Below, piece by piece: positions 30,484 through 57,012 of a stretch of DNA of 57,551 nucleotides. How positions within the stretch are numbered: the first letter of the stretch is position 1; each line of letters opens with the position of its first letter. The stretch covers positions 1 to 57,551 of IMG/VR virus record IMGVR_UViG_3300020198_000019. The stretch is one strand, 5' to 3'. Source of the DNA: a virus. Both the position numbers and the translations under genes were made by a program. The notes under the pieces are model-generated. The model made no database searches. It worked only from the letters and a program-made list of their open reading frames with translations, and was not told the origin of the DNA.

Positions 30484-30509
30484 AAATGGTTAGTCTTTTC
30501 AGATAAAAT
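30480..30509 (+). promoter_or_regulatory. Promoter candidate for the lysis/fibre operon
   Basis: TTGAAA (30480-30485), overlapping the stop codon of the giant gene, 18 bp, then TAAAAT (30504-30509). It is followed by a ~135-nt leader, long for this compact genome. Confidence 0.5.
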
Positions 30510-30564
30510 AGCAACGAATGGATGGAACTGCTGTCTTCTAAGCCATTTCAAACAACCTTGGCTT

Positions 30565-30636
30565 CCTGCAGCCCGCATTACTGCCACAATCCCCCGTGGC
30601 GGTCGCCTGGTGCGGTGCTGCAGGGTTTTACTGGGA
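30565..30636 (+). promoter_or_regulatory. Folded leader before the nuclease/lysis operon
   Basis: Arms 30565-30577 and 30611-30624 pair over 13 bp with one bulged T (CCTGCAGC/GCTGCAGG plus CCGCA/TGCGG). Inside, 30583-30587 and 30596-30600 (GCCAC/GTGGC) form a second hairpin. The structure is followed by TTTTA and CTGGGAG, the same order (hairpin, T-run, CTGGGAG site) as the repeated minus-strand junctions at 48-51 kb. It could be an attenuator or a protein-binding leader. The sequence matches no riboswitch class I know. Confidence 0.45.
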
Positions 30637-36262: not shown

Positions 36263-39200
36263 ATGGCTACGCAGACCATTGAATTTGCAGCCCCATCCGG
36301 CCAGACAATCACAGCGAAACTATTCGATGCAGGGTCTGACACGATCGAGGCGACAGCCAGCAGCGTCACGGCCAGAACAAATGCCGCAGGCGTGTACGTC
36401 GCAACGGTGACAAGCACGCTTTCAGGCGTGTATCGATTGGTGGCGACAAACCCAGCCGGCACGCTGCTTGCACAGTGGTGGGTCAGATTAGCGAATGCCG
36501 ATGGCACATACATAGCATATGAAAGCCCGAACGCCGACTATCTTGATGCAACAGTGAGCAGCAGGCTCGCAACCTCGGGCTACACAACACCACCGACAGC
36601 GGCAACGAATGCAACGGCAGTCAGAACGGAATTGGCAACCGAATTGGGTCGCATCGATGTTGCAGTCTCTACGCGATCAACATTTGCCGGAGGTGCTGTA
36701 GCGTCGGTGACTGCAGGCGTCACAGTCACCACAAACAACGACAAAACCGGCTACGCACTGACTGCAGTCACTGGATTAGGCAATCAGACGGCAAACATTA
36801 CAGGCAACGTGAGCGGCTCCGTGGGCAGCGTGACGGGGGCCGTAGGAAGCGTGACGGGGGCTGTAGGCAGCGTGACGGGGGCTGTAGGCAGCGTGACAAA
36901 CAGAGTCACGGCAAATACGGATCAATGGAACGGCGTGACTGTAACAGGAATGCCGATGCCTACCTATGTGCAGCCGACTGGTTTTCTCGCCGCGACATTT
37001 CCTGCGACTGTCAGCAGCTTTGCGGGCGGTGCGGTGTCAAGCGTGACCGGCAACGTCGGCGGGAACGTCGTCGGGTCGGTTGGCAGCATTTCCGGAGTGA
37101 CGTTCCCGGCTAACTTCGCAACCCTCGGCATCAACGCCAGCGGTCACGTCTCGCGTGTTGTGCTGGTCGATACCACAACAACAAACAGCGACATGCGAGG
37201 CACCGACAACGCACTGCTGGCATCGGGTTACACAGTTCCGCCGACAGCAGCAGCTAATGCAACAGCGGTACGCACAGAGTTGGCAACCGAGCTAGGGCGT
37301 GTCGATGTTGCAGTGTCAACGCGATCAACATTTGCGGGCGGTGCTGTAGCAAGCGTGACCGGCAACGTGGGCGGGAATGTTGTTGGTAGTGTAGGAAGCG
37401 TCACAGGGGCTGTCGGTTCGGTTACTGCACAAGTTACGGCGAACGTAAATGAATGGGGTGGAGCGGCAGTAACAGGAATGCCAATGCCTACATATGTGCA
37501 GCCTACTGGATTTCTCGCGACGACATTTCCTGCGACTGTTAGCAGCTTTGCTGGTGGTGCTGTAGCAAGCGTGAGCGGATCAGTGGGGAGTGTTACCGGC
37601 AATGTTGGCGGCAACGTCGTCGGATCAGTTGGCAGTATCAGCGGGGTGACGTTCCCGGCGAACTTTGCGGCCCTCGGCATCAATGCCAGTGGTCACGTCT
37701 CGCGTGTTGTGCTGGTCGATACCACAACAACAAACAGCGATATGCGAGGCACCGACAACGCACTGCTGGCATCGGGTTACACAGAACCGCCGACAGCGGC
37801 AGTCAATGCGACAGCAGTCAGAACGGAATTGGCAACCGAATTAGATCGCATAGACGTTGCTGTCTCTACGCGATCAACATTCGCCGGTGGTGCTGTAGCA
37901 AGCGTGACTGCAGGCGTAACAGTCACTACGAACAACGACAAAACCGGCTACGCACTGACTGCAGTAACCGGATTAGGCAATCAGACGGCAAACATCACAG
38001 GCAACGTGAGCGGGTCCGTGGGCAGCATCAGCGGTGTGACGTTTCCCACCAATTTCGCGGCACTCGGAATTAATGCTAGTGGTCATGTTTCGCGTGTTGT
38101 GTTGGTAGATACAACGACAACAAACGAAGATAAAACTGGCTACAGTTTGCAAGCAGCAACAGGACTCGGCAATCAGACGGCAAACATCACAGGCAATATA
38201 ATAGGTTCAGTCGCTAGCGTAACTGGATCAGTGGGTTCTGTTACTGGAAATGTTGGCGGCAACGTCGTAGGGTCAGTGGGCAGTATTTCCGGGGTGACGT
38301 TCCCGGCGAACTTTGCGGCCCTCGGCATCAATGCCAGCGGTCACGTTTCGCGTGTTGTGCTGGTCGATACAACAACCGTGAACAGTGACATGCGAGGCAC
38401 TGACAACGCACTGCTGGCGGCAAGCTACACGGCACCACTGACCACCGCAGGAACAGCGGCGGCGGTTTGGAATGCACTGCTGGCGACATACACGACTGCA
38501 GGCAGTTTCGGGGCAAGGGTCGTGCGTTCAACGAACAGCAACAACGAACTGCAGTTGACGGGCAGCCATCATGCGGCGGCTGTATTGCACGATGCCGAGC
38601 CTGACAGCATACCGGCGGATGCACTGACCGCAGCGACCATCACTGCAATACAGGCAGGGCTGGCAACGGCAGCGAATCAGACAACGATAATTCAGTACAT
38701 CGATACTGAGATTGCAGCAATCAAACTTGTGACCGATAAGATCAACACCGGACTGGTACAGGACGGTGCGGTCTATCAGTTTACTGTCAACATGCTGGAG
38801 AATGGTCCTGCAGGTGCTGGCGGCGGATCTGCAACACTCGGCAATCAAGAGACAATCATCCAACATTTGGAAGGGATAAAAGGTGCGGGGTGGGACAGCT
38901 CGGATGCTCTAACTGCAATCTCGAGCCTTGTTGCCGCCGGTATTGGGTCAGCTCTTGCGTCGTTGGGGTTTACGACGGGCACAATCGCCGGGTTTCCCAC
39001 GACGCTACGTGTCGGAGACAGCTACACGCTGGCCGTCAACCGTGCGATTGCCGTGTACGTGCGCGATGCGCAAGGCACGCCTATAACTCAGGTCGGATCC
39101 AAGCTGTTCTCCGACGCACAGTTCAAACCTGCATGCGTGATAACGCAGGACGGGCAATCCGGTCGTGTGGATGCAACCGTGACATGGGTTCCTCCGGTCG

Positions 39201-40187: not shown

Positions 40188-41618
40188 ATGCCAAACGGGC
40201 ATTGCACTCTCTCGCCGTCGTCCGCTAAGCGATGGATTTCGTGCCCGGGCAGTTTGTTTGCGCCGCAGGGCGACACTGGCGGCGTGGACGCGCAACGGGG
40301 GACTTTGCAGCACAAGCTGTTTGAGTTCCTGCTGTGGCAGCACATGCAGGGTTGGGCTCCGGGCAAAACCTGCGGGCCTTTATCCCGCATAACACCAGTT
40401 TGGGAGGGCGTACCGTTTGTGCAGTGGGTACATTCACACCCTTTGCACAGCATGTACCAGCACACATGGTCACACACCCCCGACGTGCATCTATGTGATG
40501 ACGACTTCTACTTGGTGGAAGACGCGTTTCGGATGGTGTTGGAGATCGTGCGGTCTCACGAGCTGGAATTTGTGTACGTGTTCTCCGAGTGGCGGATGTC
40601 GCTGAGCGTCGTCGGAATGCGGGACGACCCCGGTCAGTCAGCAGAGCCGTGGTGTGGCGGCACAGCGGACTGCGTACTGGTCGGGTCTCGACAGGGGCGC
40701 AAGGTCGTGATCGTTTGCGATCTCAAAACCGGACGTAACCGTGTGCATCCGGATGATCCGCAACTGTTGTTGTATGCAGCAATGGTACTAGGTCAGCTCC
40801 ACGTAGCAGAAACACCAGCGTCAGACCCTGCCGTTGTGGCGTGGTTGCGGGATGCCCCTTTGGCGGCGAGTGGGGTAATAACCGCAGTGCTTCAGCCAAA
40901 GAGTAACCCGGCGTTGGCGATGCATAACTGCTCGCCGGACGAACTCGCCAACGTTGTGGATGCGGTTAAGCGTGTGAAAGGTCTTATTGTCCCGCACGAT
41001 CTGTCGTCCACGAATCCGCCTGCGGATTTACTGGTCGCCGGACCGCACTGTCAGTACTGCAGGCGGCGTAGTGTGTGCTCCGCATACACGACCATGCACC
41101 AGCATGAGTTTGCCGCTGTTGTTTGGGAAGCCCCGGGCAAACAGGTTCTGCCGTTGCCTGTGGCAGACCTGACTATCGAACAGCTCTTGCAGTTCGAGCG
41201 GCGTATTGATGTGGTCACGCAATTTTGCAGTGACGTAAAGAAGGAGTTACTACGCAGAGCGCACAGGGGCGTAGCAATCCCCGGTAAAAAATTAGTCACC
41301 GTGTTTGGCCACAGGCAGTGGCACGTTGACGAACGGATGACGGGGGAGCAGGTGGTTATTGAGTTGTCGCAGGCGATGGGCGTTCCGTCCGACGTGTGCG
41401 TTGACACGACACCTGCCTCCCCTGCCGAGGTCGAAAGGCGGCTGCGATCTCGGTACGGCTTGAAAAAAGCGGAGGCGGCGGAAGCTGTCAACCGCTTCGC
41501 TCGGGCAAAAATGCAAGCCGTCAAACTTGTTGATCGTGACGCCTCCGGCGACGAGGTTACGCCGGAAGCCATTGTGCATTTCTTAAACGCTATTCAGGAT
41601 GCTGAAAACAATGACTGA
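40188..41618 (+). CDS. PD-(D/E)XK nuclease, DUF2800-like
   Basis: 476 aa. Asp161 (GGTADCVL), DLK at 178-180 (VIVCDLKTGR) and Gln192 (PQLLLYAAM) give the RecB/Cas4-type catalytic set. CQYCRRRSVC near 288-297, with an early Cys (ISCPGS, residue 19), could form the iron-sulfur cluster found in AddB/Cas4-type nucleases. DUF2800 genes commonly sit next to DUF2815 and family A polymerase in phages, as here. It probably trims DNA ends during recombination or replication. Confidence 0.8.
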   Translation: MPNGHCTLSPSSAKRWISCPGSLFAPQGDTGGVDAQRGTLQHKLFEFLLWQHMQGWAPGKTCGPLSRITPVWEGVPFVQWVHSHPLHSMYQHTWSHTPDVHLCDDDFYLVEDAFRMVLEIVRSHELEFVYVFSEWRMSLSVVGMRDDPGQSAEPWCGGTADCVLVGSRQGRKVVIVCDLKTGRNRVHPDDPQLLLYAAMVLGQLHVAETPASDPAVVAWLRDAPLAASGVITAVLQPKSNPALAMHNCSPDELANVVDAVKRVKGLIVPHDLSSTNPPADLLVAGPHCQYCRRRSVCSAYTTMHQHEFAAVVWEAPGKQVLPLPVADLTIEQLLQFERRIDVVTQFCSDVKKELLRRAHRGVAIPGKKLVTVFGHRQWHVDERMTGEQVVIELSQAMGVPSDVCVDTTPASPAEVERRLRSRYGLKKAEAAEAVNRFARAKMQAVKLVDRDASGDEVTPEAIVHFLNAIQDAENND

Positions 41619-47874: not shown

Positions 47875-48132
47875 TCACTTGTTGCGGCTGCGGTCGGCGA
47901 ACCACTCGCCACCACGGAGCACGAACCACCGGGGCATCATATCGCGACCGATCACCGCATAGGCGTTTGCCCCGTCGTAGTATCGTGTTTCACCGCCAAC
48001 CGTCCGGCATTCGTATTGACCGAGCAGCATTTGACCCGCTTGCTCACGATCCTTGCGGTCGCGTGCCGCATATTCGTTATCGGCTCGCAGGCTGTCAGCA
48101 TTCGGCAGAACTGTTCCAATCATTCGCGGCAT
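47875..48132 (-). CDS. Hypothetical protein, 85 aa
   Basis: ATG eight bases after GGGAG. Charged N-terminus, then a strand-rich centre (CRTVGGETRYYDGANAYAV) and RWFVLRGGEWFADR. No Cys pair or membrane segment. Unknown family. Confidence 0.65.
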   Translation of the reverse strand: MPRMIGTVLPNADSLRADNEYAARDRKDREQAGQMLLGQYECRTVGGETRYYDGANAYAVIGRDMMPRWFVLRGGEWFADRSRNK

Positions 48133-48139
48133 CGTCTCA

Positions 48140-48183
48140 ACTCCCAGCCTAAAGAAAAATCCCCGCCGCCCTATGCTGCGGGG
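48140..48183 (-). terminator. Junction module A2
   Basis: Hairpin 48161-48183 (CCCCGC / GCGGGG arms), A-rich strand 48151-48159 (T-run in RNA) and the site read as GGGAG at 48142-48146. The following gene's stop TGA sits inside the repeated CACAACACAACAG stretch. Confidence 0.8.
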
Positions 48184-48198
48184 CTGTTGTGTTGTGCC

Positions 48199-48411
48199 TC
48201 AGTCCCGATACACGGCACCGTATTGCTCGTCCTGCCAGATGGTGTACGCAACATTGTCAGCCTCCACGATTTCGCCAGTCAGCATTCCGTCGGCATCGAC
48301 TTCCAAATACCAGCCCGAGCAGCACCATTCCTGCGGGATGTCCTCGACGCTGTTGCCCTGATATTTGACCGCCACAAGTGCCAGTTCTCGCTGCGTAATT
48401 TCCCGTGCCAT
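48199..48411 (-). CDS. Hypothetical protein, 70 aa
   Basis: The ATG at 48411 follows GGGAG; a longer frame exists only by reading back through hairpin A3, so I reject it. Acidic, with EWCCSGWYLEVDADGML and AYTIWQDEQYGAVY suggesting a small beta fold. The Cys pair may matter. Unknown. Confidence 0.65.
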   Translation of the reverse strand: MAREITQRELALVAVKYQGNSVEDIPQEWCCSGWYLEVDADGMLTGEIVEADNVAYTIWQDEQYGAVYRD

Positions 48412-48419
48412 TGCCCTAA

Positions 48420-48462
48420 CTCCCAGCCTAAAGAAAAATCCCCGCCGCCCTATGCTGCGGGG
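48420..48462 (-). terminator. Junction module A3
   Basis: Hairpin 48440-48462, identical in sequence to A2, with the same T-run and GGGAG (48421-48425 on this strand). Flanked upstream by CACACACACACAACAG. Confidence 0.8.
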
Positions 48463-48478
48463 CTGTTGTGTGTGTGTG

Positions 48479-48730
48479 TCAGTCCAGTTTGTGCGTGAAT
48501 CCGTGAAAATGCCGCCTCGCACACGCACGGCCAACCGGGAAAAATCCCATATACCCGGGATCGCTTTCGTCGGTGTTCAGCCCTGGGGCAGCCACCTGTC
48601 TGCCGCCGTCAATCACCTCGACGAACAGCGGCTCGCTCGTCAGCTTGCGACCACAGCACGCACAGTGTTCCGTGCTGCCTTGCGTGCTGTGGTCTGCCCA
48701 CTTCATCGGAATCATCGCTGCTGTGCTCAT
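48479..48730 (-). CDS. Zinc-ribbon-like hypothetical protein, 83 aa
   Basis: HCACCGRKL near residues 22-30 and a later GRACARRH look like two halves of a zinc site. FVEVIDGGRQVAAPG lies between. Small zinc-ribbon proteins of this form are frequent in phage early regions; target unknown. The ATG follows GGGAG by eight bases. Confidence 0.65.
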   Translation of the reverse strand: MSTAAMIPMKWADHSTQGSTEHCACCGRKLTSEPLFVEVIDGGRQVAAPGLNTDESDPGYMGFFPVGRACARRHFHGFTHKLD

Positions 48731-48737
48731 CGTCGTA

Positions 48738-48782
48738 ACTCCCAGTCAGAAGTAAAATGCCCGCCAGCACTGTGCTGCGGGG
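48738..48782 (-). terminator. Junction module A4
   Basis: Hairpin 48760-48782 (GCCCGC..GCAC/GTGC..GCGGGG type), A-tract in 48751-48758 interrupted by T and G, GGGAG at 48739-48743. Confidence 0.75.
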
Positions 48783-48797
48783 CTGTTGTGTTGTGTC

Positions 48798-49040
48798 TCA
48801 GTCTACGATCCGCCGGATTGATCGTCCGTGGAATGTGCCCTTGCGGATACGGTCAGACCAGCCACGACCCTCGCCCCAGTAGTGTGCCCTGTCCAGCAGC
48901 ACTACTGCCTGCCCTCGGGCGTTGTCGCTGAATCCAATCACTCGACCAATCACCAGCATCTCAGTCGCACCGTGATTGTATCGCGCCAGAATGTCGCCGA
49001 CTCGCACGCCGTTCCACTGAATCCGATTTGATACCTGCAT
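48798..49040 (-). CDS. Hypothetical protein, 80 aa, SH3/Tudor-like
   Basis: A short beta-rich protein. WNGVRVGDILARYNHG, then VIGRVIGFSDNARGQAVVLL resembles five-strand barrels of the SH3/KOW kind. The rest is basic with aromatic residues (HYWGEGRGWSDRI). Possible nucleic-acid or protein binding. The ATG follows GGGAGTTGGGCAA. Confidence 0.6.
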   Translation of the reverse strand: MQVSNRIQWNGVRVGDILARYNHGATEMLVIGRVIGFSDNARGQAVVLLDRAHYWGEGRGWSDRIRKGTFHGRSIRRIVD

Positions 49041-49047
49041 TTGCCCA

Positions 49048-49093
49048 ACTCCCAGTCAGAAGAAAAATGCCCCGCCGCACTGTGCAGCGGGGC
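49048..49093 (-). terminator. Junction module A5
   Basis: Hairpin 49069-49093: GCCCCGC, an A/G mismatch flanking a GCAC/GTGC inner stem, and GCGGGGC, then AGAAGAAAAAT (T-run in RNA) and GGGAG. Confidence 0.8.
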
Positions 49094-49103
49094 GGTGTGT
49101 GTG

Positions 49104-49367
49104 TCAGCCGCCGTACTCGACAACACTCAGGCGGAATGACTCGCCGCTGTCAGTCTTGCCCCACACATCATAGGTGCATTCGCCGTCTGCGTCCTCGACA
49201 CTGGCGTTTGCGGCGTAGTCAATTTCATCGACGCCAGTCAGTGCGTCTTCCAGCCATTCCAGATTGTCTCTCACATCGACCCGAACGCGAACCGTTACAG
49301 TGCGGTCTTTGCTAATGCTAGTTGCAATTGCGGCTTCGATCTTCATCGCTCGGGTAACAGTCGTCAT
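49104..49367 (-). CDS. Hypothetical protein, 87 aa
   Basis: The ATG at 49367 follows GGGAG; a TTG 15 nt upstream lies in the junction itself. Alternating strands and acidic loops (TVTVRVRVDVRDN, ASVEDADGECTYDVWG). Probably a small beta domain. Unknown family. Confidence 0.6.
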   Translation of the reverse strand: MTTVTRAMKIEAAIATSISKDRTVTVRVRVDVRDNLEWLEDALTGVDEIDYAANASVEDADGECTYDVWGKTDSGESFRLSVVEYGG

Positions 49368-49374
49368 CGTCTGA

Positions 49375-49421
49375 ACTCCCAAAAACTAAATGGATACGCC
49401 CCGCCGCACTGTGCAGCGGGG
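49375..49421 (-). terminator. Junction module A6 (degraded T-run)
   Basis: Hairpin 49399-49421 is intact (CCCCGC..GCAC/GTGC..GCGGGG), but the stretch after it reads GTATCCATTTAG before TTTTT, so the T-run no longer follows the stem directly. GGGAG is retained. Useful evidence that the ribosome-binding site is under more constraint than termination. Confidence 0.7.
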
Positions 49422-49459
49422 TGGTGTGTTGTTGTTTTGCTTCATTCCGCTTCAGCGTC

Positions 49460-49678
49460 TTAGCTCTTCTTCAGCAGCACGTAATCGATGTACTTGAACT
49501 GACATTCCGCAAGCTGATCGGACAATTGCCACATGATTTCTGTCGCATCAAAATCCGCTTCTTTTTGTGCTGCGTGCCCTGCCTTGCGAAGCAGCTTCCA
49601 TGTGTCCAGCATATGCGCCATCGCCACTTGCTGCAGTGCAGCACTGTCCTGTTGTTTTTGTGATTTACGTTTTGCCAT
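49460..49678 (-). CDS. Hypothetical helical protein, 72 aa
   Basis: Lys/Gln/Ala-rich, predicted all-helix (QQDSAALQQVAMAHMLDTWK ... YIDYVLLKKS). No membrane span. Could be a small coiled-coil interaction partner. The ATG follows the GGGAGTTGGGCAA site. Confidence 0.65.
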   Translation of the reverse strand: MAKRKSQKQQDSAALQQVAMAHMLDTWKLLRKAGHAAQKEADFDATEIMWQLSDQLAECQFKYIDYVLLKKS

Positions 49679-49684
49679 TTGCCC

Positions 49685-49728
49685 AACTCCCAGTCAGAAG
49701 AAAGCCCCGCCGCACCATGCGACGGGGG
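49685..49728 (-). terminator. Junction module A7
   Basis: Hairpin 49705-49727 with a shortened T-run (AAAG on the plus strand before it) and GGGAG at 49687-49691. The inner stem is changed (CACCATG), the outer CCCCG/CGGGG kept. Confidence 0.7.
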
Positions 49729-49740
49729 AACACGTCCATC

Positions 49741-49983
49741 TCACCGTGACTGTCGGTCAATCGACTGCCAATGAGCCAGCGTGTCGGCGTCCAAATCAAA
49801 CGACTCACCGACCTCAGAGTGCCAGCCATTGGTGTTGACCCTGCGCCCACGCAATCCATCAGCCGTCTGGCGTGCCTGCAGGTGGCAAACGCCACCGTGC
49901 GCGGCTCTATTTTCGTCTCGGCTCACGGAGCCGGTATACCCCACAGTTGCCACTGTGGTCCATGTTCGAGTGATCCTACTCAT
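49741..49983 (-). CDS. Hypothetical protein, 80 aa
   Basis: The ATG at 49983 lies nine bases after GGGAG; the longer frame upstream crosses hairpin A8. TWTTVATVGYTGSVSRDENR, then GGVCHLQARQ suggests a strand-rich start and a basic middle. Unknown. Confidence 0.6.
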   Translation of the reverse strand: MSRITRTWTTVATVGYTGSVSRDENRAAHGGVCHLQARQTADGLRGRRVNTNGWHSEVGESFDLDADTLAHWQSIDRQSR

Positions 49984-49991
49984 CGTCTGCA

Positions 49992-50035
49992 ACTCCCAGT
50001 CAGAAGAAAAATCCCCGCCAGCACTGTGCAGCGGG
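49992..50035 (-). terminator. Junction module A8
   Basis: Hairpin 50013-50035, T-run from AGAAGAAAAAT, GGGAG at 49994-49998. Preceded in the RNA by TGACACACACAACAG. Confidence 0.8.
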
Positions 50036-50050
50036 CTGTTGTGTGTGTCA

Positions 50051-50227
50051 TCACCACGCCGCCTGAATGTCCGCGTGTGCCACGGTGATAATGCGGCCAC
50101 TCCCTGTCAGCAGCCGCACAGCCGTTCGTCCTACCGCCACGATCCGCAGTGTTTTGCCGTCCACAGTTGCCCAGCGGCTTGTGTTTTTGCAGTCGCCAGC
50201 GATGTTCTTGAGTTCGTTAGTGTTCAT
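50051..50227 (-). CDS. Hypothetical protein, 58 aa
   Basis: The ATG at 50227 is chosen (nine bases after GGGAG), though an ATG at 50233 is also possible. DGKTLRIVAVGRTAVRLLTG and RIITVAHADIQAAW form short strands and a helix, as in small barrel proteins. Unknown. Confidence 0.6.
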   Translation of the reverse strand: MNTNELKNIAGDCKNTSRWATVDGKTLRIVAVGRTAVRLLTGSGRIITVAHADIQAAW

Positions 50228-50234
50228 CTTCATC

Positions 50235-50277
50235 AACTCCCAGTCAGAAAAGAACCCCGCCGCACTGTGCTGCGGGG
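50235..50277 (-). terminator. Junction module A9
   Basis: Hairpin 50255-50277, an A-rich stretch AGAAAAGAA and GGGAG, nearly identical over 50 bases to A10. Confidence 0.8.
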
Positions 50278-50313
50278 CTGTTGTGTTTCACTCGTCCGCC
50301 TGCATGATCTTAA

Positions 50314-50625
50314 TTAACAGACCTCCGCTGCGAGGTCGTCGATGGCCGCGTCGACCCATTGCGGAAAATCAGTAACGACCATTTCCCGCATCTTCGACTC
50401 ACCAATCGCACACGCTGCCATCTTCAGGCTGTCTTCCTCGTCCTCGCCGTCATACCGGTGGCGGTGTGCGGCCAGTTCCGCTTCGGCCTCAGTCCGCGCC
50501 ACGCGCACCGTGTAACCACCGAAAAAACCGCGATCTTCTTTTGGCAGTTTACTGTCGCCACCGCTCATGTGCTCAAAACCAATCTGAAAGGTGTGTGCGT
50601 CTGCTTTGCGTGTTTCAAGTTTCAT
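50314..50625 (-). CDS. Hypothetical protein, 103 aa
   Basis: The ATG at 50625 lies nine bases after GGGAG. A strand, an acidic-helical centre (EAEAELAAHRHRYDGEDEED) and a helical end (FPQWVDAAIDDLAAEVC). GYTVRVARTEAEAE suggests an alpha-beta fold. No family recognised. Confidence 0.65.
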   Translation of the reverse strand: MKLETRKADAHTFQIGFEHMSGGDSKLPKEDRGFFGGYTVRVARTEAEAELAAHRHRYDGEDEEDSLKMAACAIGESKMREMVVTDFPQWVDAAIDDLAAEVC

Positions 50626-50632
50626 GTTCATC

Positions 50633-50675
50633 AACTCCCAGTCAGAAAAGAACCCCGCCGCACTGTGCTGCGGGG
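50633..50675 (-). terminator. Junction module A10
   Basis: Hairpin 50653-50675 with the same flanks as A9. Confidence 0.8.
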
Positions 50676-50690
50676 CTGTTGTGTGTGTCA

Positions 50691-50912
50691 TCACTCCGGC
50701 GGATGCTCGTAGCCGAGTGTTTCGACGTAGTATCGTTCGCCATCCTCAACATCAAACAATCCAACGCCAATTGTGATCTTGTCTTCCTTGGCGATTCGTT
50801 CCGCAGCACCCCAGGCGAGGGTTTCACTGCTGTATCCGCTGTCGTCGCCTACGCGACATTCTCCGCCGTCAGTGTCGAGTTCCCACAGGAAATAGCGCCG
50901 TGTCATCGTCAT
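50691..50912 (-). CDS. Hypothetical protein, 73 aa
   Basis: ATG after GGGGTTGAGCA, a diverged site. Acidic, with RRYFLWELDTDGGECRVG and VGLFDVEDGERYYVETLG. Looks like a compact beta protein. Unknown. Confidence 0.6.
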   Translation of the reverse strand: MTMTRRYFLWELDTDGGECRVGDDSGYSSETLAWGAAERIAKEDKITIGVGLFDVEDGERYYVETLGYEHPPE

Positions 50913-50919
50913 TGCTCAA

Positions 50920-50967
50920 CCCCAGTTGTGTTCCGCTAAAAAATCCCCGCCGCACTGTGCAGCGGGG
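50920..50967 (-). terminator. Junction module A11
   Basis: Hairpin 50945-50967 with TTTTTTAGC and then a changed spacer before the GGGG-type site (GGGAG lost). Shows decay of the 3' half of the module. Confidence 0.7.
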
Positions 50968-50975
50968 CTGTTGTT

Positions 50976-51203
50976 CTACCTGTCGTAATTGATACTGCTC
51001 CGGTCAACCTGCCAGATATCTGCTGTAATCAGCCGGACTGCAACAGGTTGAGTGGACATAGGCAGACGCACCGTACCTGTTGTCTCGCTCGTCATCGTCA
51101 CAGTGCGTCTATAGCTGGCTTGGTGCCATGGATCTCGACCACCACAGCCACATCCACACGGCACCAGTCTGTACCATACGATTTGATTCGCCAACTTTGC
51201 CAT
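50976..51203 (-). CDS. Hypothetical protein, 75 aa, Cys-rich loop
   Basis: The ATG at 51203 follows GGGGGTTGATGAAG. CGCGCGGRDPWH (Cys three times in five positions) could bind metal. Followed by a strand-rich end (VAVRLITADIWQVD). Unknown. Confidence 0.6.
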   Translation of the reverse strand: MAKLANQIVWYRLVPCGCGCGGRDPWHQASYRRTVTMTSETTGTVRLPMSTQPVAVRLITADIWQVDRSSINYDR

Positions 51204-51210
51204 CTTCATC

Positions 51211-51255
51211 AACCCCCGTCAAAAGAAAATAAAACCCGCTGCCCATTGCAGCGGG
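51211..51255 (-). terminator. Junction module A12
   Basis: Perfect 8-bp stem CCCGCTGC / GCAGCGGG (51235-51242, 51248-51255), then a T-rich stretch and GGGGG. The last copy of family A toward the right. Confidence 0.8.
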
Positions 51256-51269
51256 GTGTGGCGTCAGCC

Positions 51270-51458
51270 TCAGACTGCCTTACGAATGCGTCGCAGTGCT
51301 GACTGGCTCAGGCTGTGCATTGTGGTGTAGTGACCGGCTGCCGCATCGTACACCCGGACGGTGCCGTCTGCACTGATTGACACGCGATTCAGTCGGACGC
51401 CTTCGCCGCTGAAAGCCTTGCATCGGATAACGCGGATGGTTGTGTTTGCTGTGCTCAT
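51270..51458 (-). CDS. Hypothetical protein, 62 aa
   Basis: Starts at ATG overlapping the stop of the preceding gene (ATGA), with GGAG upstream, so it is coupled and lacks its own hairpin. Strand-rich and basic (VSISADGTVRVYDAAAGHYT). Unknown. Confidence 0.6.
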   Translation of the reverse strand: MSTANTTIRVIRCKAFSGEGVRLNRVSISADGTVRVYDAAAGHYTTMHSLSQSALRRIRKAV

Positions 51459-52141: not shown

Positions 52142-52921
52142 TCACAGAATACGCAACAAACTGGGCAGGACAGCATTGCGGCTGCCGTGCCCTACAATCG
52201 CCACGTGCTTACGCTGGTCAGCCATGTCCCGGCGACCGTCGCAGGCTCCGCAAGTAGCACAGGTGCGGGTATTGCCCGCTTCGGGTGACGCCGGACACAG
52301 GATCTCGTTAGACGCAAGATCGTCGACGGTCCGCATGACACGGAACGTACGCCAGCCAGCATCCTGAGCGATCACCGCCTCAGCTTGTGACTGCACGCTC
52401 GCCATAACCAGCGGCTGCCACCCCGCCGCAGCAGACTCACGCCACTGATGCGTGTATCCGGGGTACTTGCCGGGTTTAAGCAACGCTTCAAGAGCAGCCC
52501 ACGCCTCACGCGGCACGGCGACCGGGTCCCCGTAAGACCCGCGACGCAATGCGTACTTGCCGAGCTTACGCAGCATTGACTTGCCGAGCTTTGTCACGTG
52601 CTGATAAGACCCTCGACGAAAGGCTTTCCACACTTGCTCTGGGGCGTTTCGTATCGTCACATAACACGCACGGTAACGGTTCCTCGTGCGGTGCTTACTG
52701 CCCTTCGGCATGCGCTCCACAACGCCACGCAACGGGCAGGAACCGCAGATACTCGAGTCCTTGCCGCTATTGATCGCGGCGAGGGGGCTAACATCCCGTC
52801 GCAAGATCCATGTCTGGATCAGCGGGCCTGTTTTTTCGTTGCGTGTGCCTATTGTGGCGATAGCAACAATCGGCTTGCCGTCCAGCATGGACGGACCGGA
52901 GTAAAAGATAACGCCAGCCAT
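52142..52921 (-). CDS. Cysteine-cluster phage protein, 259 aa
   Basis: The ATG at 52921 lies six bases after GGGAG (CCCACTATGGGAG). Near the start GPSMLDGKPIVAIATIG, TGPLIQTWILRRDVSP, then CGSCPLRG and RACYV; near the end LCPASPE and CATCGACDG. The four- and three-Cys groups suggest a metal or Fe-S site. I recall this pattern from conserved hypothetical phage proteins but cannot name the family. KLGKSMLRKLGKYALRRGSYG is a basic, possibly nucleic-acid-facing stretch. Confidence 0.65.
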   Translation of the reverse strand: MAGVIFYSGPSMLDGKPIVAIATIGTRNEKTGPLIQTWILRRDVSPLAAINSGKDSSICGSCPLRGVVERMPKGSKHRTRNRYRACYVTIRNAPEQVWKAFRRGSYQHVTKLGKSMLRKLGKYALRRGSYGDPVAVPREAWAALEALLKPGKYPGYTHQWRESAAAGWQPLVMASVQSQAEAVIAQDAGWRTFRVMRTVDDLASNEILCPASPEAGNTRTCATCGACDGRRDMADQRKHVAIVGHGSRNAVLPSLLRIL

Positions 52922-52926
52922 GATCA

Positions 52927-52979
52927 ACTCCCATAGTGGGCCAGAAAAAGAAAACCCCGACGACACGGTGTCGCCGGGG
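52927..52979 (-). terminator. Junction module B1
   Basis: Hairpin 52955-52979 (CCCCG, CGACAC, GTGTCG, CGGGG arms), T-rich stretch, and CCCACTATGGGAG before the ATG. Begins in the RNA with TAACGCAGAAAGCAGGTC, whose TAA is the CsrA stop. Confidence 0.8.
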
Positions 52980-53006
52980 AGTACTGCAATCGACCTGCTT
53001 TCTGCG

Positions 53007-53183
53007 TTATGGGGCGATCTCTTCTCGCACCACGGAAACCGTATCACGCGGGCTGTCAAACGCCAGACTGCATGACCCTGTCGCAGTGCTGTTGATTTTT
53101 ATGGTGATCACAACCGGGTCGGACCCGGGAGGCGTCACCGTAATGACAACACGCTGGCCTCTTCGACGTTTCAATACCAACAT
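53007..53183 (-). CDS. csrA: CsrA-family translational regulator
   Basis: 58 aa: MLVLKRRRGQRVVI, strands VVITIKIN, then SLAFDSPRDTVSVVREEI. This is the CsrA core: basic strand 1 with the L-x-R start and the late V-x-R-E-E with the RNA-binding Arg. Known CsrA dimers bind GGA motifs near ribosome-binding sites. The ATG at 53183 has GGAG six bases upstream. It sits in the array whose genes share GGGAG leaders, so phage self-regulation or hijack of host translation is likely. The family call is firm, the target is inference. Confidence 0.85.
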   Translation of the reverse strand: MLVLKRRRGQRVVITVTPPGSDPVVITIKINSTATGSCSLAFDSPRDTVSVVREEIAP

Positions 53184-53190
53184 TCGAAAC

Positions 53191-53228
53191 TCCTTAATGG
53201 AAAAGCGTGCCGGCAAACACGCCGGCAC
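53191..53228 (-). terminator. Junction hairpin B2 (variant)
   Basis: Perfect 8-bp stem GTGCCGGC / GCCGGCAC (53207-53214, 53221-53228) with four T and GGAG ahead of csrA. Sequence unlike the other B hairpins, same layout. Confidence 0.75.
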
Positions 53229-53262
53229 ATCTGGAAAACTCTACAACATCTGTGGAATCGTG

Positions 53263-53610
53263 TCAACGGGAAAACCGGATCAGCCGGCAATGCCGCAGTT
53301 TGATCACGCCCGCTTCATCGACCCGGGCGTGAGCGGTATTCGTGTCATCGAGGGACACCCAGTTACCGGGCGTCGGATCTCCGGGCTGCGGTGATGCGAA
53401 CCACCGCACATCGATCGCAAGGTACACGGTAGTCTTACGTGCTCGGGCATTATACGGGGCCTGACTACGCCACAATTTCGTGGCTTCCACGATATTGGGG
53501 CCACTGCCCCAACTACAATCCCCGACCACCAGAAACCACACCCATCCTGACGGGGCGTCCGTCACGTCCAACAACACGCTGTGATTACGAAACAGAACTT
53601 CACTCGCCAT
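53263..53610 (-). CDS. Hypothetical protein, 115 aa
   Basis: ATG at 53610 after CCCATTATGGGAGAGAGTG. Strand-rich with a Trp/Val core (SGWVWFLVVGDCSWG) and TTVYLAIDVRWFASP. The C-terminus is basic (LRHCRLIRFSR). Unknown. Confidence 0.65.
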   Translation of the reverse strand: MASEVLFRNHSVLLDVTDAPSGWVWFLVVGDCSWGSGPNIVEATKLWRSQAPYNARARKTTVYLAIDVRWFASPQPGDPTPGNWVSLDDTNTAHARVDEAGVIKLRHCRLIRFSR

Positions 53611-53616
53611 CACTCT

Positions 53617-53665
53617 CTCCCATAATGGGACCAAAGAAAAGCCCGGCGACACGGTGCCGCCGGGC
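53617..53665 (-). terminator. Junction module B3
   Basis: Hairpin 53641-53665, GCCCGGCG / CGCCGGGC arms around CACGGTG, then T-rich and CCCATTATGGGAG. The TCCCAT-T-ATGGGA portion is itself a perfect palindrome that includes the ribosome-binding site. Confidence 0.8.
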
Positions 53666-53674
53666 ATGTAACAC

Positions 53675-54259
53675 TCAGCGGGTTTCGACAAAGGCCCTGA
53701 TATTATCCCACTTTTCTTCCGCAACACGATGAGCTGCATCCCTTGCAGCAAGCGCGTCGTTGAACTCAACTACTAAGCGGTTCACTGCGCTCGTCAGTAA
53801 CGTAGTATCCGCATCGCCAGCGACTTCGGTGAGCGGGTAGGGTGGCCTCACTGGGCCGTCAACGACAGTGATCTTGCCGTCCGTGTCAAACGAACACAGG
53901 CGTACAACGATCTCGTTGTACTCACACATGTGCGTTTCCTTGCCGTTGGTGACGAAGGCGCACCCCTTAACCAGCAGGTAGATGCTGTGCTTGCTTTGCT
54001 GCGTCGTCAAGTACCCCAAGGCCAGGTACCGCTCGGGGTACGCACGTCGGTGTGTTTCTGCCTCCCACACAGCCGGGGCTACAGCGTTACGAAACGCTGT
54101 GGTCAACGTAAGGTCAGTCTTCACAGCTTTCTTGCCAACGTACGCTGTAATGGCGGACCGCAGTAACGGCAGCAACAACAAGGCAAACCGCAGCGCCCTG
54201 CAGTGAGCCTCGAGGCGGGCCTGATACTGCGGCGTCATAGTGACTGGGTACTCTCGCAT
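53675..54259 (-). CDS. Hypothetical protein, 194 aa
   Basis: ATG at 54259 with GGAG six bases upstream. Helical N-terminus with a hydrophobic stretch (LRFALLLLPLLRSAITAYVG), then strands with IYLLVKGCAFVTNGKE. Might associate with membrane or form a helical core. No family recognised. Confidence 0.65.
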   Translation of the reverse strand: MREYPVTMTPQYQARLEAHCRALRFALLLLPLLRSAITAYVGKKAVKTDLTLTTAFRNAVAPAVWEAETHRRAYPERYLALGYLTTQQSKHSIYLLVKGCAFVTNGKETHMCEYNEIVVRLCSFDTDGKITVVDGPVRPPYPLTEVAGDADTTLLTSAVNRLVVEFNDALAARDAAHRVAEEKWDNIRAFVETR

Positions 54260-54262
54260 AAC

Positions 54263-54316
54263 ACACTCCAAACAAAAACCAACAGGAAAAACCCCGACGA
54301 CACGGTGTCGCCGGGA
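54263..54316 (-). terminator. Junction module B4
   Basis: Hairpin 54292-54316 close to B1, T5, and a diverged site TTTGGAG with no palindrome. Confidence 0.7.
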
Positions 54317-54344
54317 AGGTACTGCTCAGGACCTGCTTTCTGCG

Positions 54345-54572
54345 TTAAGACCCCCGCTTGCAGTAGTTACACGCAGCGTTCAAGGCCTTTAGAAAAGCAC
54401 TATTCGACTCGATGACGTTTCGAACTTGAGATTGCCGGCTGTTCGTATCCGAGTAACACTCGGGCTCGGCAAGCGTTTCGAGTTCCTCCACCAACAACCG
54501 GGCTACGGCGAGCGCGTCCTCAATCAGGGGCTCGGCGTCGCTTTCATCAAACTTTCTCATCTTATGCGTCAT
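54345..54572 (-). CDS. Hypothetical helical protein, 75 aa
   Basis: ATG after CCCATTACGGGAG. Acidic helix-rich (DESDAEPLIEDALAVARLL, VEELETLAEPE) with two Cys near each other at the end (CNYCKRGS). Its TAA is the first base triplet of the B-type repeat TAACGCAGAAAGCAGG. Confidence 0.65.
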   Translation of the reverse strand: MTHKMRKFDESDAEPLIEDALAVARLLVEELETLAEPECYSDTNSRQSQVRNVIESNSAFLKALNAACNYCKRGS

Positions 54573-54578
54573 GGTAAC

Positions 54579-54626
54579 ACTCCCGTAATGGGCCGCAAAA
54601 GGCCCGGCGACACGGTGCCGCCGGGC
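54579..54626 (-). terminator. Junction module B5
   Basis: Hairpin 54602-54626 (same arms as B3), TTTTGCGGCCCATTACGGGAG. Confidence 0.8.
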
Positions 54627-54644
54627 ATAGAAAACACTAAAGCC

Positions 54645-55283
54645 TCACGGCTTGTGCTCAAGCTCAGACATTGCATCCCGAAAAGCCTTGATAACTTGGT
54701 ACTCGTAAGCAGACTCGGGATCAATCGCCCACGTATCGTCCTGATCCAACTGTTCCCGGGCAGAGGTCACCATGTCTTGAATCAAATACTCCACGTCGGA
54801 ATCGTAATAGCCGCCGCAACTGTCAAGTTGGGTTTCGTCGTCGTCGTCGCCAACCCCGGACCACGAAAGCCCGTGGCCGTTACACCAGTCCGTGTAGCAC
54901 TGGAGGAACCGATCAGCGTCCTTTGCCCGATCCTCGTACGTCTTAGCCCCGATGGCGGAAGGCCCATGTTCCCAGAGCAATACGCCTGCGTGTCCGACGC
55001 CGTCGAAACGGCAGTCAGTACCTGGGCCACCGTGCCCCTTACGAAACCACACACACTCCCCGTGCTCGTAATAGCTGAGCATGAACGCCAGCCCGACATC
55101 GAGTCGGCGGCGAAGGCTGATGTCCCGAGCGGTGAACACGAGCGATCCGTGTTTACGGGTGACACGAAACAACTTGTCGGGGTGCTGAAACCCGACGTGT
55201 TTGCGGCTAAACGACACGAGTTTCCAGTTCATGTCGTTTTCGGCTGGATCTGGACAGCAATCAGGCTCGATCTTAAACGTCAT
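54645..55283 (-). CDS. Hypothetical protein, 212 aa
   Basis: ATG after CCCATTACGGGAGTGTT. N-terminus with CCPDPAEND, middle beta-rich (SLVFTARDISLRRR, AGVLLWEHGP), C-terminus acidic (GVGDDDDETQLD). The largest unknown of family B. No motif decides its role. Confidence 0.65.
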   Translation of the reverse strand: MTFKIEPDCCPDPAENDMNWKLVSFSRKHVGFQHPDKLFRVTRKHGSLVFTARDISLRRRLDVGLAFMLSYYEHGECVWFRKGHGGPGTDCRFDGVGHAGVLLWEHGPSAIGAKTYEDRAKDADRFLQCYTDWCNGHGLSWSGVGDDDDETQLDSCGGYYDSDVEYLIQDMVTSAREQLDQDDTWAIDPESAYEYQVIKAFRDAMSELEHKP

Positions 55284-55289
55284 AACACT

Positions 55290-55373
55290 CCCGTAATGGG
55301 AACAACAAAGAAAAACCCGGCGACACCACGTCGCCGGGAACCTACTGCTCTGGACCTGCTTTCTGCGTTAGCC
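55290..55373 (-). repeat. Junction module B6, left copy of a 62-nt exact direct repeat
   Basis: Hairpin 55316-55338: perfect 9-bp stem CCCGGCGAC / GTCGCCGGG. From about 55311 to 55372 it is identical to 56298-56359. The TAA in its distal end follows a short open stretch without a start (55374-55394), apparently the leftover 3' end of a gene. Confidence 0.85.
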
Positions 55374-55415
55374 GATAAAACGTTTCGCTGCTCACAAAAA
55401 CGGTGTTGGCATCAG

Positions 55416-55760
55416 CTATCCTACAACCTTGGATAATTTCATTGGCTTGTTCATCCAAGGTTGTGGCTGGATATGAATGAACCAATCTTGAATTGAAGGA
55501 ATAAAGCCCATGTCTTCGGTAACGTGTTGTTCACCTATCCATCGAGTAGGAATAACCCTGCCCGTTGATAGCGTGATTGTATTGCCGAACACGCGTTCAC
55601 ACTCAAAGATACCTTGAGCATGATGTCGTAAAGCACGATGCCGAAAATCAGCAAACATTTCCTTGCTGGCATCAAACCATTCGTGAATTTTTTGATAATC
55701 CTCTGGGTTTCCGCCCCATTTTTGGGTTGAGGAAAGGGAATGATGATATGGATTAGCCAT
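55416..55760 (-). CDS. DUF6915-like protein, 114 aa
   Basis: ATG with GGAGG five bases upstream. NPYHHSLSSTQKWGGNPEDY, IHEWFDASKEMFADFRHRAL and RWIGEQHVTEDMGFIPS agree with DUF6915 as I remember it (HHA/S..S...GG..EDY, IHDWFD, FRHRALRHH). Function of the family unknown. Codons and intergenic DNA here are clearly AT-richer than in the neighbours and no junction hairpin follows it directly, supporting recent acquisition with the gene beside it. Confidence 0.75.
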   Translation of the reverse strand: MANPYHHSLSSTQKWGGNPEDYQKIHEWFDASKEMFADFRHRALRHHAQGIFECERVFGNTITLSTGRVIPTRWIGEQHVTEDMGFIPSIQDWFIHIQPQPWMNKPMKLSKVVG

Positions 55761-55910
55761 TGTGTCCTCCATAAAAAAAGGTAGGTGTGAGGCCAATCCT
55801 CACACCTAACTCCAAAGAATGCGAACAAAGCGGTCAACCGGAGCCGCCGTTCGCGCGGGTTTTGAAATCAAAGTCTTTCGGCGGCGGCCCGGTTACCGCC
55901 GTCGTTAGTA
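55761..55910. other. 150-nt gap inside the inserted segment
   Basis: Contains CCGGTTGACCG and GCCGGCGG-type stretches (CGGAGCCGCC, GGCGGCGGCCCGGTTACCGCC) but no frame with a credible start and no junction-family hairpin. In the leftward direction a short inverted repeat AGGTGTGAGG / CCTCACACCT (55781-55806) precedes the DUF6915 gene and may act as its terminator. Confidence 0.35.
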
Positions 55911-56264
55911 TTAACAATTTTCCTCAAAATCTTCGTAATTTAAAACTTCCTCGCACCCTTTCATCGTGACAGTTTTCGTCGTGGTATCCCAAATAACCTC
56001 ACCCGTTACGCTGTATTCACCAGCGAACGTATAGTATTTGTCATAAACTGGTCGGCACAGCCCGCGAACAAGCGCGTTTTCGGGCGTTTGCTCTCTGCCC
56101 GAATCCTCTGGCCAATAATCTTCATGTAATTGGCAGATGACTGTGTCATCTTTCTGGATGACAATGTCATGGCATCCGCCTTCATCATTGCCACCACTGA
56201 AACGGATAACGCATTTGTTTCCGCCTTTGCTTTTGATGAAAGCAAACAGTTTTTCACGTGTCAT
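55911..56264 (-). CDS. DUF6878-like protein, 117 aa
   Basis: ATG after ATGGAGAAAAGCT. CVIRFSGGNDEGGCHDIVIQ, then YYTFAGEYSVTGEVIWD and TVTMKGCEEV match DUF6878-type plasmid/phage proteins from memory (F-x-G-x-x-D-x-G, then AGEYSVxGEV). Function unknown. Shares the low GC of the gene after it. Confidence 0.65.
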   Translation of the reverse strand: MTREKLFAFIKSKGGNKCVIRFSGGNDEGGCHDIVIQKDDTVICQLHEDYWPEDSGREQTPENALVRGLCRPVYDKYYTFAGEYSVTGEVIWDTTTKTVTMKGCEEVLNYEDFEENC

Positions 56265-56270
56265 AGCTTT

Positions 56271-56359
56271 TCTCCATTTCGTCCTTAACGTAAAAACAAA
56301 AACCCGGCGACACCACGTCGCCGGGAACCTACTGCTCTGGACCTGCTTTCTGCGTTAGC
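56271..56359 (-). repeat. Junction module B7, right copy of the 62-nt direct repeat
   Basis: Hairpin 56303-56325 and distal part identical to B6. The TAA of the 198-aa gene lies in it. The low-GC segment lies exactly between the two copies. Confidence 0.85.
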
Positions 56360-56951
56360 GTACCTCGGAACGCACGTTGATGAGACCCTCCCGCATTTCC
56401 TCGCTGGTGATCTCGAACTGTTTATCTGTAGACCGCACGTACCACGTCCACGTAATATCCTCGCGGTCACCCTCGCACTCCTCGATCCAGAAATGCATCC
56501 GCTTGATTATCGCTCGCGTTACCCGCCACGATTCGATTGACGGGTAGCTCCCCTTAACCACGACTCGGTGCCAGCCCCAGTGCTGCATCGCATACAGCCT
56601 AACGTCCTCCGTGTTAGGCTCAGACTGCAGGGCGAACTGGGCCACCAGTTCCGGTAGCCCCGTCCAAAGCGCGAGTAGATCATCGCATGATAGATCTTGA
56701 CTTGGGTTTACGTCGGCCAGCCTGCACCGTAATTCGATGCAGTCTAAGCCGTACTCGTTAGACGCGATCAAGTCGAACACCGATAAAAATTCATCGTAAA
56801 CGGGGTCGTCGGGGTTTGCGGCACTAAGCGCTGCGTAAACAAGCCCGAAAGCGTGTTGGCGAGCCACCATCTCGTGGTTCGCCACGTCAACCCCTGCGTC
56901 ACCGTCACAGTACGTAACGTGACCGTGATTATCGATCCAGTACTCAGACAT
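56355..56951 (-). CDS. Hypothetical protein, 198 aa
   Basis: ATG with GGAGG, preceded by TCCATTACGGAGG, a B-type site. Mostly helical, acidic (VDVANHEMVARQHAFGLVYA, CDDLLALWTGLPELVAQFAL). Trp-rich near the end (WTWYVRS). No family recognised. Confidence 0.65.
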   Translation of the reverse strand: MSEYWIDNHGHVTYCDGDAGVDVANHEMVARQHAFGLVYAALSAANPDDPVYDEFLSVFDLIASNEYGLDCIELRCRLADVNPSQDLSCDDLLALWTGLPELVAQFALQSEPNTEDVRLYAMQHWGWHRVVVKGSYPSIESWRVTRAIIKRMHFWIEECEGDREDITWTWYVRSTDKQFEITSEEMREGLINVRSEVR

Positions 56952-56990
56952 GACTTACCTCCGTAATGGAAACAAGAAAGGAACACGAAC

Positions 56991-57012
56991 GATGGCCGCC
57001 GCAGCGGCCATC
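56991..57012 (-). other. Strong hairpin without T-run
   Basis: Nine-bp perfect stem GATGGCCGC / GCGGCCATC with a four-base loop, between the 198-aa gene and the 74-aa gene. The transcript after it reads GTTCGTGTTCC, so it is not a standard terminator; it may be a processing or stability element. Confidence 0.5.

Follow-up and report, generated by a model that had tools for sequence, protein, structure and literature searches.

About 1% of sequenced phages carry a csrA gene, and the survey of such genes (RsmM and others; 30 of 2,517 phages) asks for loss-of-function tests (Sobrero and Valverde 2020; PMC7366521). The phage analysed here, a freshwater virus represented by a 57,551-base IMG/VR record that was taken at its full length and is called the window below, places its csrA at 53007..53183 (-), in the midst of an array of genes with repeated, GGA-rich leaders. 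The locus thereby raises the question of which RNAs a phage-encoded CsrA acts upon: the leaders that surround it, its own mRNA, or the RNAs of the host. As a case for study it has several merits. The gene is positionally conserved across its lineage and comes with a testable promoter-like site and leader, and the adjoining array gives CsrA control a clear, falsifiable prediction. The genome also encodes a terminase, a DNA polymerase I, an SNF2-type helicase, and a serine recombinase, the last of which suggests a temperate lifestyle. The resolvase-domain match of this recombinase (20-1525, +) falls in two stretches and is better at residues 200-330.

A divergent CsrA kept in a small phage lineage

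The csrA open reading frame runs on the minus strand from an ATG at 53183 to a stop codon ending at 53007 and specifies 58 amino acids, MLVLKRRRGQRVVITVTPPGSDPVVITIKINSTATGSCSLAFDSPRDTVSVVREEIAP. We take this ATG to be the right start because AAGGAG lies 6 nt upstream of it, and because the orthologue in a related contig, G003, has an ATG and AAGGAG at the equivalent position. A longer reading frame opening with GTG was considered and set aside, as its start falls within the leader hairpin described below. The earlier note, made from the letters of the DNA, had announced a 58-aa CsrA homologue at this place, and position, length, and family are all confirmed: the protein matches the Pfam CsrA family PF02599 (E 4e-8, 33.5 bits, curated cut-off 27) and phrog_9500, a "CsrA-like regulator," and the G003 protein scores 42.7 bits against the same Pfam cut-off of 27.

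In common with CsrA/RsmE of Gammaproteobacteria (PF02599; 2jpp), the phage proteins have an M-L-[IV]-L-x-R N-terminus and an (A/S)P-(K/R)...V...R-x-E-I end, and by prediction they may have its five strands as well. Leu4, Arg6, and the arginine matching E. coli R44, a residue on which RNA binding is said to depend (PMC7366521), are retained in both the window protein and its G003 orthologue. M1-L4, R6, and the R44 equivalent can all be located by alignment with RsmE (2jpp) and do not vary between the two phage proteins; the window arginine in question is residue 53, aligned with R44 through the G003 orthologue. Absence of the essential arginines on alignment, which the earlier note had named as evidence against its proposal, thus did not occur, the R44 equivalent being present. 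The G003 protein aligns with RsmE from end to end, with about ten additional loop residues, but as a match it is weak (E 0.7), and it is the Pfam profile that carries the assignment to the family.

The differences from the Gammaproteobacterial proteins are considerable: about ten extra loop residues, Val or Ile in place of His43, and no C-terminal helix. Helix H1, which follows the R-E-E end in the usual CsrA core, is absent from the phage protein, which ends five residues past the R44-equivalent arginine and has no helix after strand 5 in its AlphaFold2 model. Since the Pfam cut-off does not depend on this helix, membership is argued from score and residues and is worded as "divergent member." Against the NCBIfam csrA equivalogs (TIGR00202 and others), the window and G003 proteins score 19.3 and 33.5 bits, below the cut-off of 70.1. 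The AlphaFold2 model (two sequences, monomer) predicts five strands at a pLDDT of 74, and a Foldseek search with it returned no CsrA, a result to be read in light of CsrA being an intertwined dimer whose fold a monomer model may not reproduce. On sequence grounds, the product is a genuine but divergent member of the CsrA family, and we do not class it as an orthologue of bacterial CsrA.

Such divergence (the missing C-terminal helix, the extra loop residues, and scores far below the NCBIfam csrA cut-offs) could also be read as that of a protein that no longer binds RNA in the manner of CsrA and instead interferes with the CsrA of the host, for example through mixed dimers. We regard this as highly improbable, given that L4, R6, and the R44 equivalent are all kept and that the presence of CsrA in the host is itself an assumption. 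Phage csrA genes as such are already published, and the window gene is a new, divergent example. Those of Pseudomonas aeruginosa phages are 62-63% identical to E. coli CsrA, and many of the surveyed genes are close homologues of the E. coli one (PMC7366521). The window shares with the surveyed phages a CsrA-family gene in which the key arginine is kept; it differs from them in that its protein is C-terminally shorter and its gene sits in an array of hairpin leaders (PMC7366521).

A terminase search recovered related viral contigs, seven in all. Of these, G001 duplicates a portion of the window genome at 99.4% identity, and the terminases of the remainder are 76-77% identical to that of the window phage. 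Two of the relatives, G003 (58.7 kb) and G004 (51.7 kb), cover the array region, and both have a PF02599 gene in the same place; where csrA found no match, the contig is a fragment and the missing match is uninformative. G003 and G004 encode one and the same CsrA sequence, which shares 50% identity with the window protein. The window and G003 share the gene order of homologues of 54572, 54259, 53610, csrA, and 52921. The last of these, the downstream neighbor at 52142..52921 (-), matches phrog_2554 (unknown function; E 1.4e-60), and its G003 orthologue, 64% identical, likewise follows csrA. The recurrence of csrA in the same gene order in G003 and G004 marks it as a kept gene of a small lineage. 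Between the window and G003, csrA has a pN of 0.39 and a pS of 0.75, with dN about 0.56 and dS saturated near 4; the gene is thus likely to be under purifying selection, judging from substitutions whose synonymous sites are saturated. Single- and two-sequence searches with the protein, run against INPHARED phages, PLSDB plasmids, and IMG/VR, gave no relative outside G003 and G004, those with the single sequence giving no match, a tblastn search with the window protein across 50,697 phage records gave no match, and a terminase search of genome contigs found no prophage.

The two-hairpin leader array

Two families of repeated leaders occur in the array. Around csrA, at 52922..57012 (-), most genes have the B type, composed of a GC-rich hairpin, a T-run, and a Shine-Dalgarno hairpin of the form UUCC(C)-ANUAN-GG(G)AG. 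At 48129..51270 (-), the leaders are of the A type, with a hairpin CCCCGCNGCA..TGCGGCGGGG, a T-run, and mostly CTGGGAGTT ahead of the start codon. At a B junction, the order is mostly stop codon, the conserved stretch ACGCAGAAAGCAGGTC, a 10-bp GC-rich hairpin with its T-run, UUCC(C)-ANUAN-GG(G)AG, and start. The array is real: besides these two families, terminator-like hairpins are abundant in the 46.4-57.5 kb region (32 observed, 11.1 expected).

Both B hairpins show signs of maintained pairing. In the first, GC-rich hairpin, 97.7% of cells are paired, with both-sided changes at three pairs. The Shine-Dalgarno hairpin is 82.4% paired; its pair 6/16 is UA in 13 and CG in 4, and its pair 4/18 is variously GC, GU, AU, UA, or UG. 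Its covariation of 0.371 compares with 0.255 after shuffling, with none of 500 shuffles as high and all slid versions lower. Array starts also exceed GGA-bearing structural starts in the strength of the local Shine-Dalgarno hairpin (p 3e-6, or p 0.02 for the window taken by itself), although the leader units are related and these tests, which make no correction for it, serve as a guide only. From this pattern of changes, the Shine-Dalgarno hairpin is likely to be real. The array leaders are standardized gene junctions, in which a terminator-like hairpin is followed by a small Shine-Dalgarno hairpin, and they precede most of the non-structural genes. Between phages, identity reaches about 83-90% in the B unit, as against about 65-69% in their genes.

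This two-hairpin leader array is a stranger feature than csrA itself. An Rfam scan of the window found no known RNA family, the A motif CTGGGAGTT was not found in the relatives, and the exact B pattern, sought in other phages for occurrences without csrA, matched only the two csrA-bearing relatives. We also considered whether the leaders might be cassette sites resembling integron attC and dropped the idea, as the recombinase is of the serine type and no attC boxes were visible by eye. The nearest leader-array analogue known to us comes from cluster K mycobacteriophages, whose SAS/ESAS system, like the window, has short conserved repeats with a ribosome-binding site just before many non-structural genes (PMC3203893). 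About half of these elements have an upstream inverted repeat, and hairpins in their mRNA have little support (PMC3203893); in the window, by contrast, both hairpins covary and the first is terminator-like, and the sequences differ. When the 13-bp SAS repeat GGGATAGGAGCCC was compared with the window leaders, the motifs differed and no match was found. We know of no CsrA in the cluster K phages that carry SAS/ESAS.

A third hairpin type, GAYRGCCGC-TGCG-GCGGCYRTC, lies at 56991-57012 (-) in the window and at 40671 and 41584 in G003; it has two compensatory changes between the phages and no T-run.

GGA at start codons and control of the array

The earlier note had described a GGA-containing leader at every start of this region. 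The array is indeed rich in GGA, which occurs within -20..-4 of 20 of 22 array starts in the window phage, but not every start has it, and it is not specific to the array, being found at 15 of 34 structural starts; GGA likewise favors array over structural starts in a tally of 35/39 against 29/55. The note had further proposed that the phage protein might regulate its own array. On such a model, the protein would bind the GGA that overlaps the Shine-Dalgarno sequence and repress translation, or else melt the hairpin and activate it. Several observations are in keeping with this: csrA sits within the array, and three phages have kept the two together; GGA is commoner at array than at structural starts, and there is a precedent in CsrA opening the Shine-Dalgarno hairpin of E. 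coli ymdA (PMC7492729).

The fuller A-N-GGA motif gives divergent answers in the two phages. In the G003 array, 14 of 15 GGA-bearing starts have it, with A fixed and N free across the leaders, as array control predicts; the difference from structural genes (5/29) has a Fisher p of 1e-6, which overstates it since the G003 array units are partly duplicated. In the window array, the motif occurs at only 4 of 20, no different from the 5 of 29 among structural genes, which bears out the earlier caveat that the sites show the GGA core and not the full consensus. Action of CsrA through the array GGAs would lead one to expect the motif in the window, which carries csrA, no less often than in its relative, and this is not what is seen.

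The predicted structure of the leaders also speaks against array control. At high-affinity CsrA sites the GGA lies in a loop, and affinity falls when it is paired (PMC7652899). The array GGA is predicted to sit in the 3' arm of the covarying hairpin and not in its loop, with a mean loop probability of 0.04 in the window and 0.01 in G003 and a paired probability of 0.92 and 0.91. Values for structural genes are similar (0.97 and 0.82), and over the folding ensemble the GGA is no more paired in the array than in structural genes (p 0.36). Furthermore, what the leaders conserve is the hairpin: the GGGAG of the window arose together with CCC for UCC on the opposite arm, so that the exchange of UCC/GGA for CCC/GGG kept the pairing and lost A-N-GGA. 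The leader of 48730 has GGA, and its G003 orthologue keeps the GC hairpin without a GGA before the start. The ymdA precedent also has its limits. The ymdA leader resembles those of the window in holding its Shine-Dalgarno sequence in a hairpin, but there CsrA does not protect the Shine-Dalgarno GGA, and a pair of CsrA sites elsewhere is required, whereas the phage leaders usually have only the Shine-Dalgarno GGA near the start (PMC7492729).

The array GGA is the ordinary Shine-Dalgarno core of this phage, and CsrA is not needed to explain it; GGA near start codons is by itself poor evidence of CsrA control. In the window, then, the proposal that the phage protein controls its own array is unsupported: the motif is no more frequent than elsewhere, the GGA is paired, the pairing and not A-N-GGA covaries, and an orthologous leader does without GGA. 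Taking both phages together, we consider such control unlikely. A further version of it, in which CsrA is a dedicated trans-acting switch that is made first from a host-type promoter and then opens or blocks the Shine-Dalgarno hairpins before the non-structural genes, is very unlikely. A single phage protein would then govern how an entire operon is translated, with a terminator-like hairpin fencing off each of its genes.

A probable csrA transcription unit and the possible targets of its product

Upstream of csrA, at 53238..53266 (-), lies a sigma70-like promoter, TTGACA-17-TAGAGT, that is a consensus match only, with a score of 13.6; the corresponding G003 site is TTGACC-17-TAGAAT (13.3). 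In a scan of both genomes, the top array-strand site precedes csrA in each, and the next-best site within 130 nt of other array starts scores 7.2 in the window and 8.9 in G003. Local shuffles of the 120 nt before csrA reached the observed scores in 1 of 5,000 cases for the window and 2 of 5,000 for G003. Whole-genome shuffles gave scores of 13.3 or more in 14/60 and 10/60; such scores are thus not rare genome-wide, and the weight of the promoter comes from its position and its recurrence in both phages.

About 8 nt past the -10 element begins a perfect hairpin, TGTGCCGGCG-TGTT-TGCCGGCACG (53206..53229, -), at what would be the 5' end of the csrA mRNA. All 24 of its nucleotides, the loop included, are identical in G003, where the flanks have diverged, and it folds in both leaders. 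It is a single copy in each genome searched; the exact 24-nt sequence was found in none of the genome contigs and, in IMG/VR, only in G003 and G004. That even the loop is identical suggests recognition of its sequence, whether in the RNA or in the DNA, and the hairpin may accordingly be an operator or a protein-binding RNA. It is followed at 53185..53202 (-) by the Shine-Dalgarno sequence AAGGAG in a small predicted hairpin, UUCC-AUUAA-GGAG, whose GGA is predicted to be paired in both leaders and whose A-N-GGA is conserved in both. Directly after csrA, at 52945..52979 (-), a terminator-like hairpin with a T-run, the hairpin itself at 52979-52955, doubles as the leader of the next gene, and it would end a window csrA mRNA of about 280 nt. 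This hairpin is missing in G003, and csrA is therefore predicted to be joined there to the next gene. In the window, csrA looks like a separate unit transcribed by the host polymerase, to judge from these signals.

A local role for the protein deserves consideration at this point, with the csrA mRNA itself as its main target and perhaps the next gene as another. Both csrA leaders keep AAGGA despite differing surroundings, and the leader hairpin is identical in the two phages. Yet AAGGAG is also the best Shine-Dalgarno sequence, its GGA lies in a stem, and the loop of the conserved hairpin, UGUU, has no GGA. Autoregulation as the main function seems quite unlikely to us.

The explanation we favor is that a divergent CsrA, expressed from its own host-polymerase unit, has its main targets among RNAs outside the window leaders, with host mRNAs first. 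The short csrA mRNA would come from unmodified host RNA polymerase, in the early phase of infection or during lysogeny; the stable hairpin at its 5' end would be stabilizing or regulated; and the protein, by its family resemblance, would dimerize and bind GGA sites in RNA. The main targets would most likely be host mRNAs, a conjecture, with feedback on the protein's own AAGGAG leader possible. Host mRNAs or csrA's own mRNA are likelier targets than the array leaders. The direct target is the weakest link in this explanation, which for that reason we hold with about even confidence.

Two minor features of these genomes merit description. In G003, the stretch that separates the divergent structural genes from the array contains, at 38169-38330 (L013:18169-18330), tandemly repeated units some 20 bases long with TACCGGTA palindromes; the same repeats occur near 18498 in G004, and they are possible iterons or operators. 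In the window, a tRNA-Ser gene (anticodon TGA; 30509-30582, -) interrupts a run of plus-strand genes, in a gap just before an isolated leader of the CTGGGAG type at 30633; a promoter-like site lies nearby at 30480 (+).
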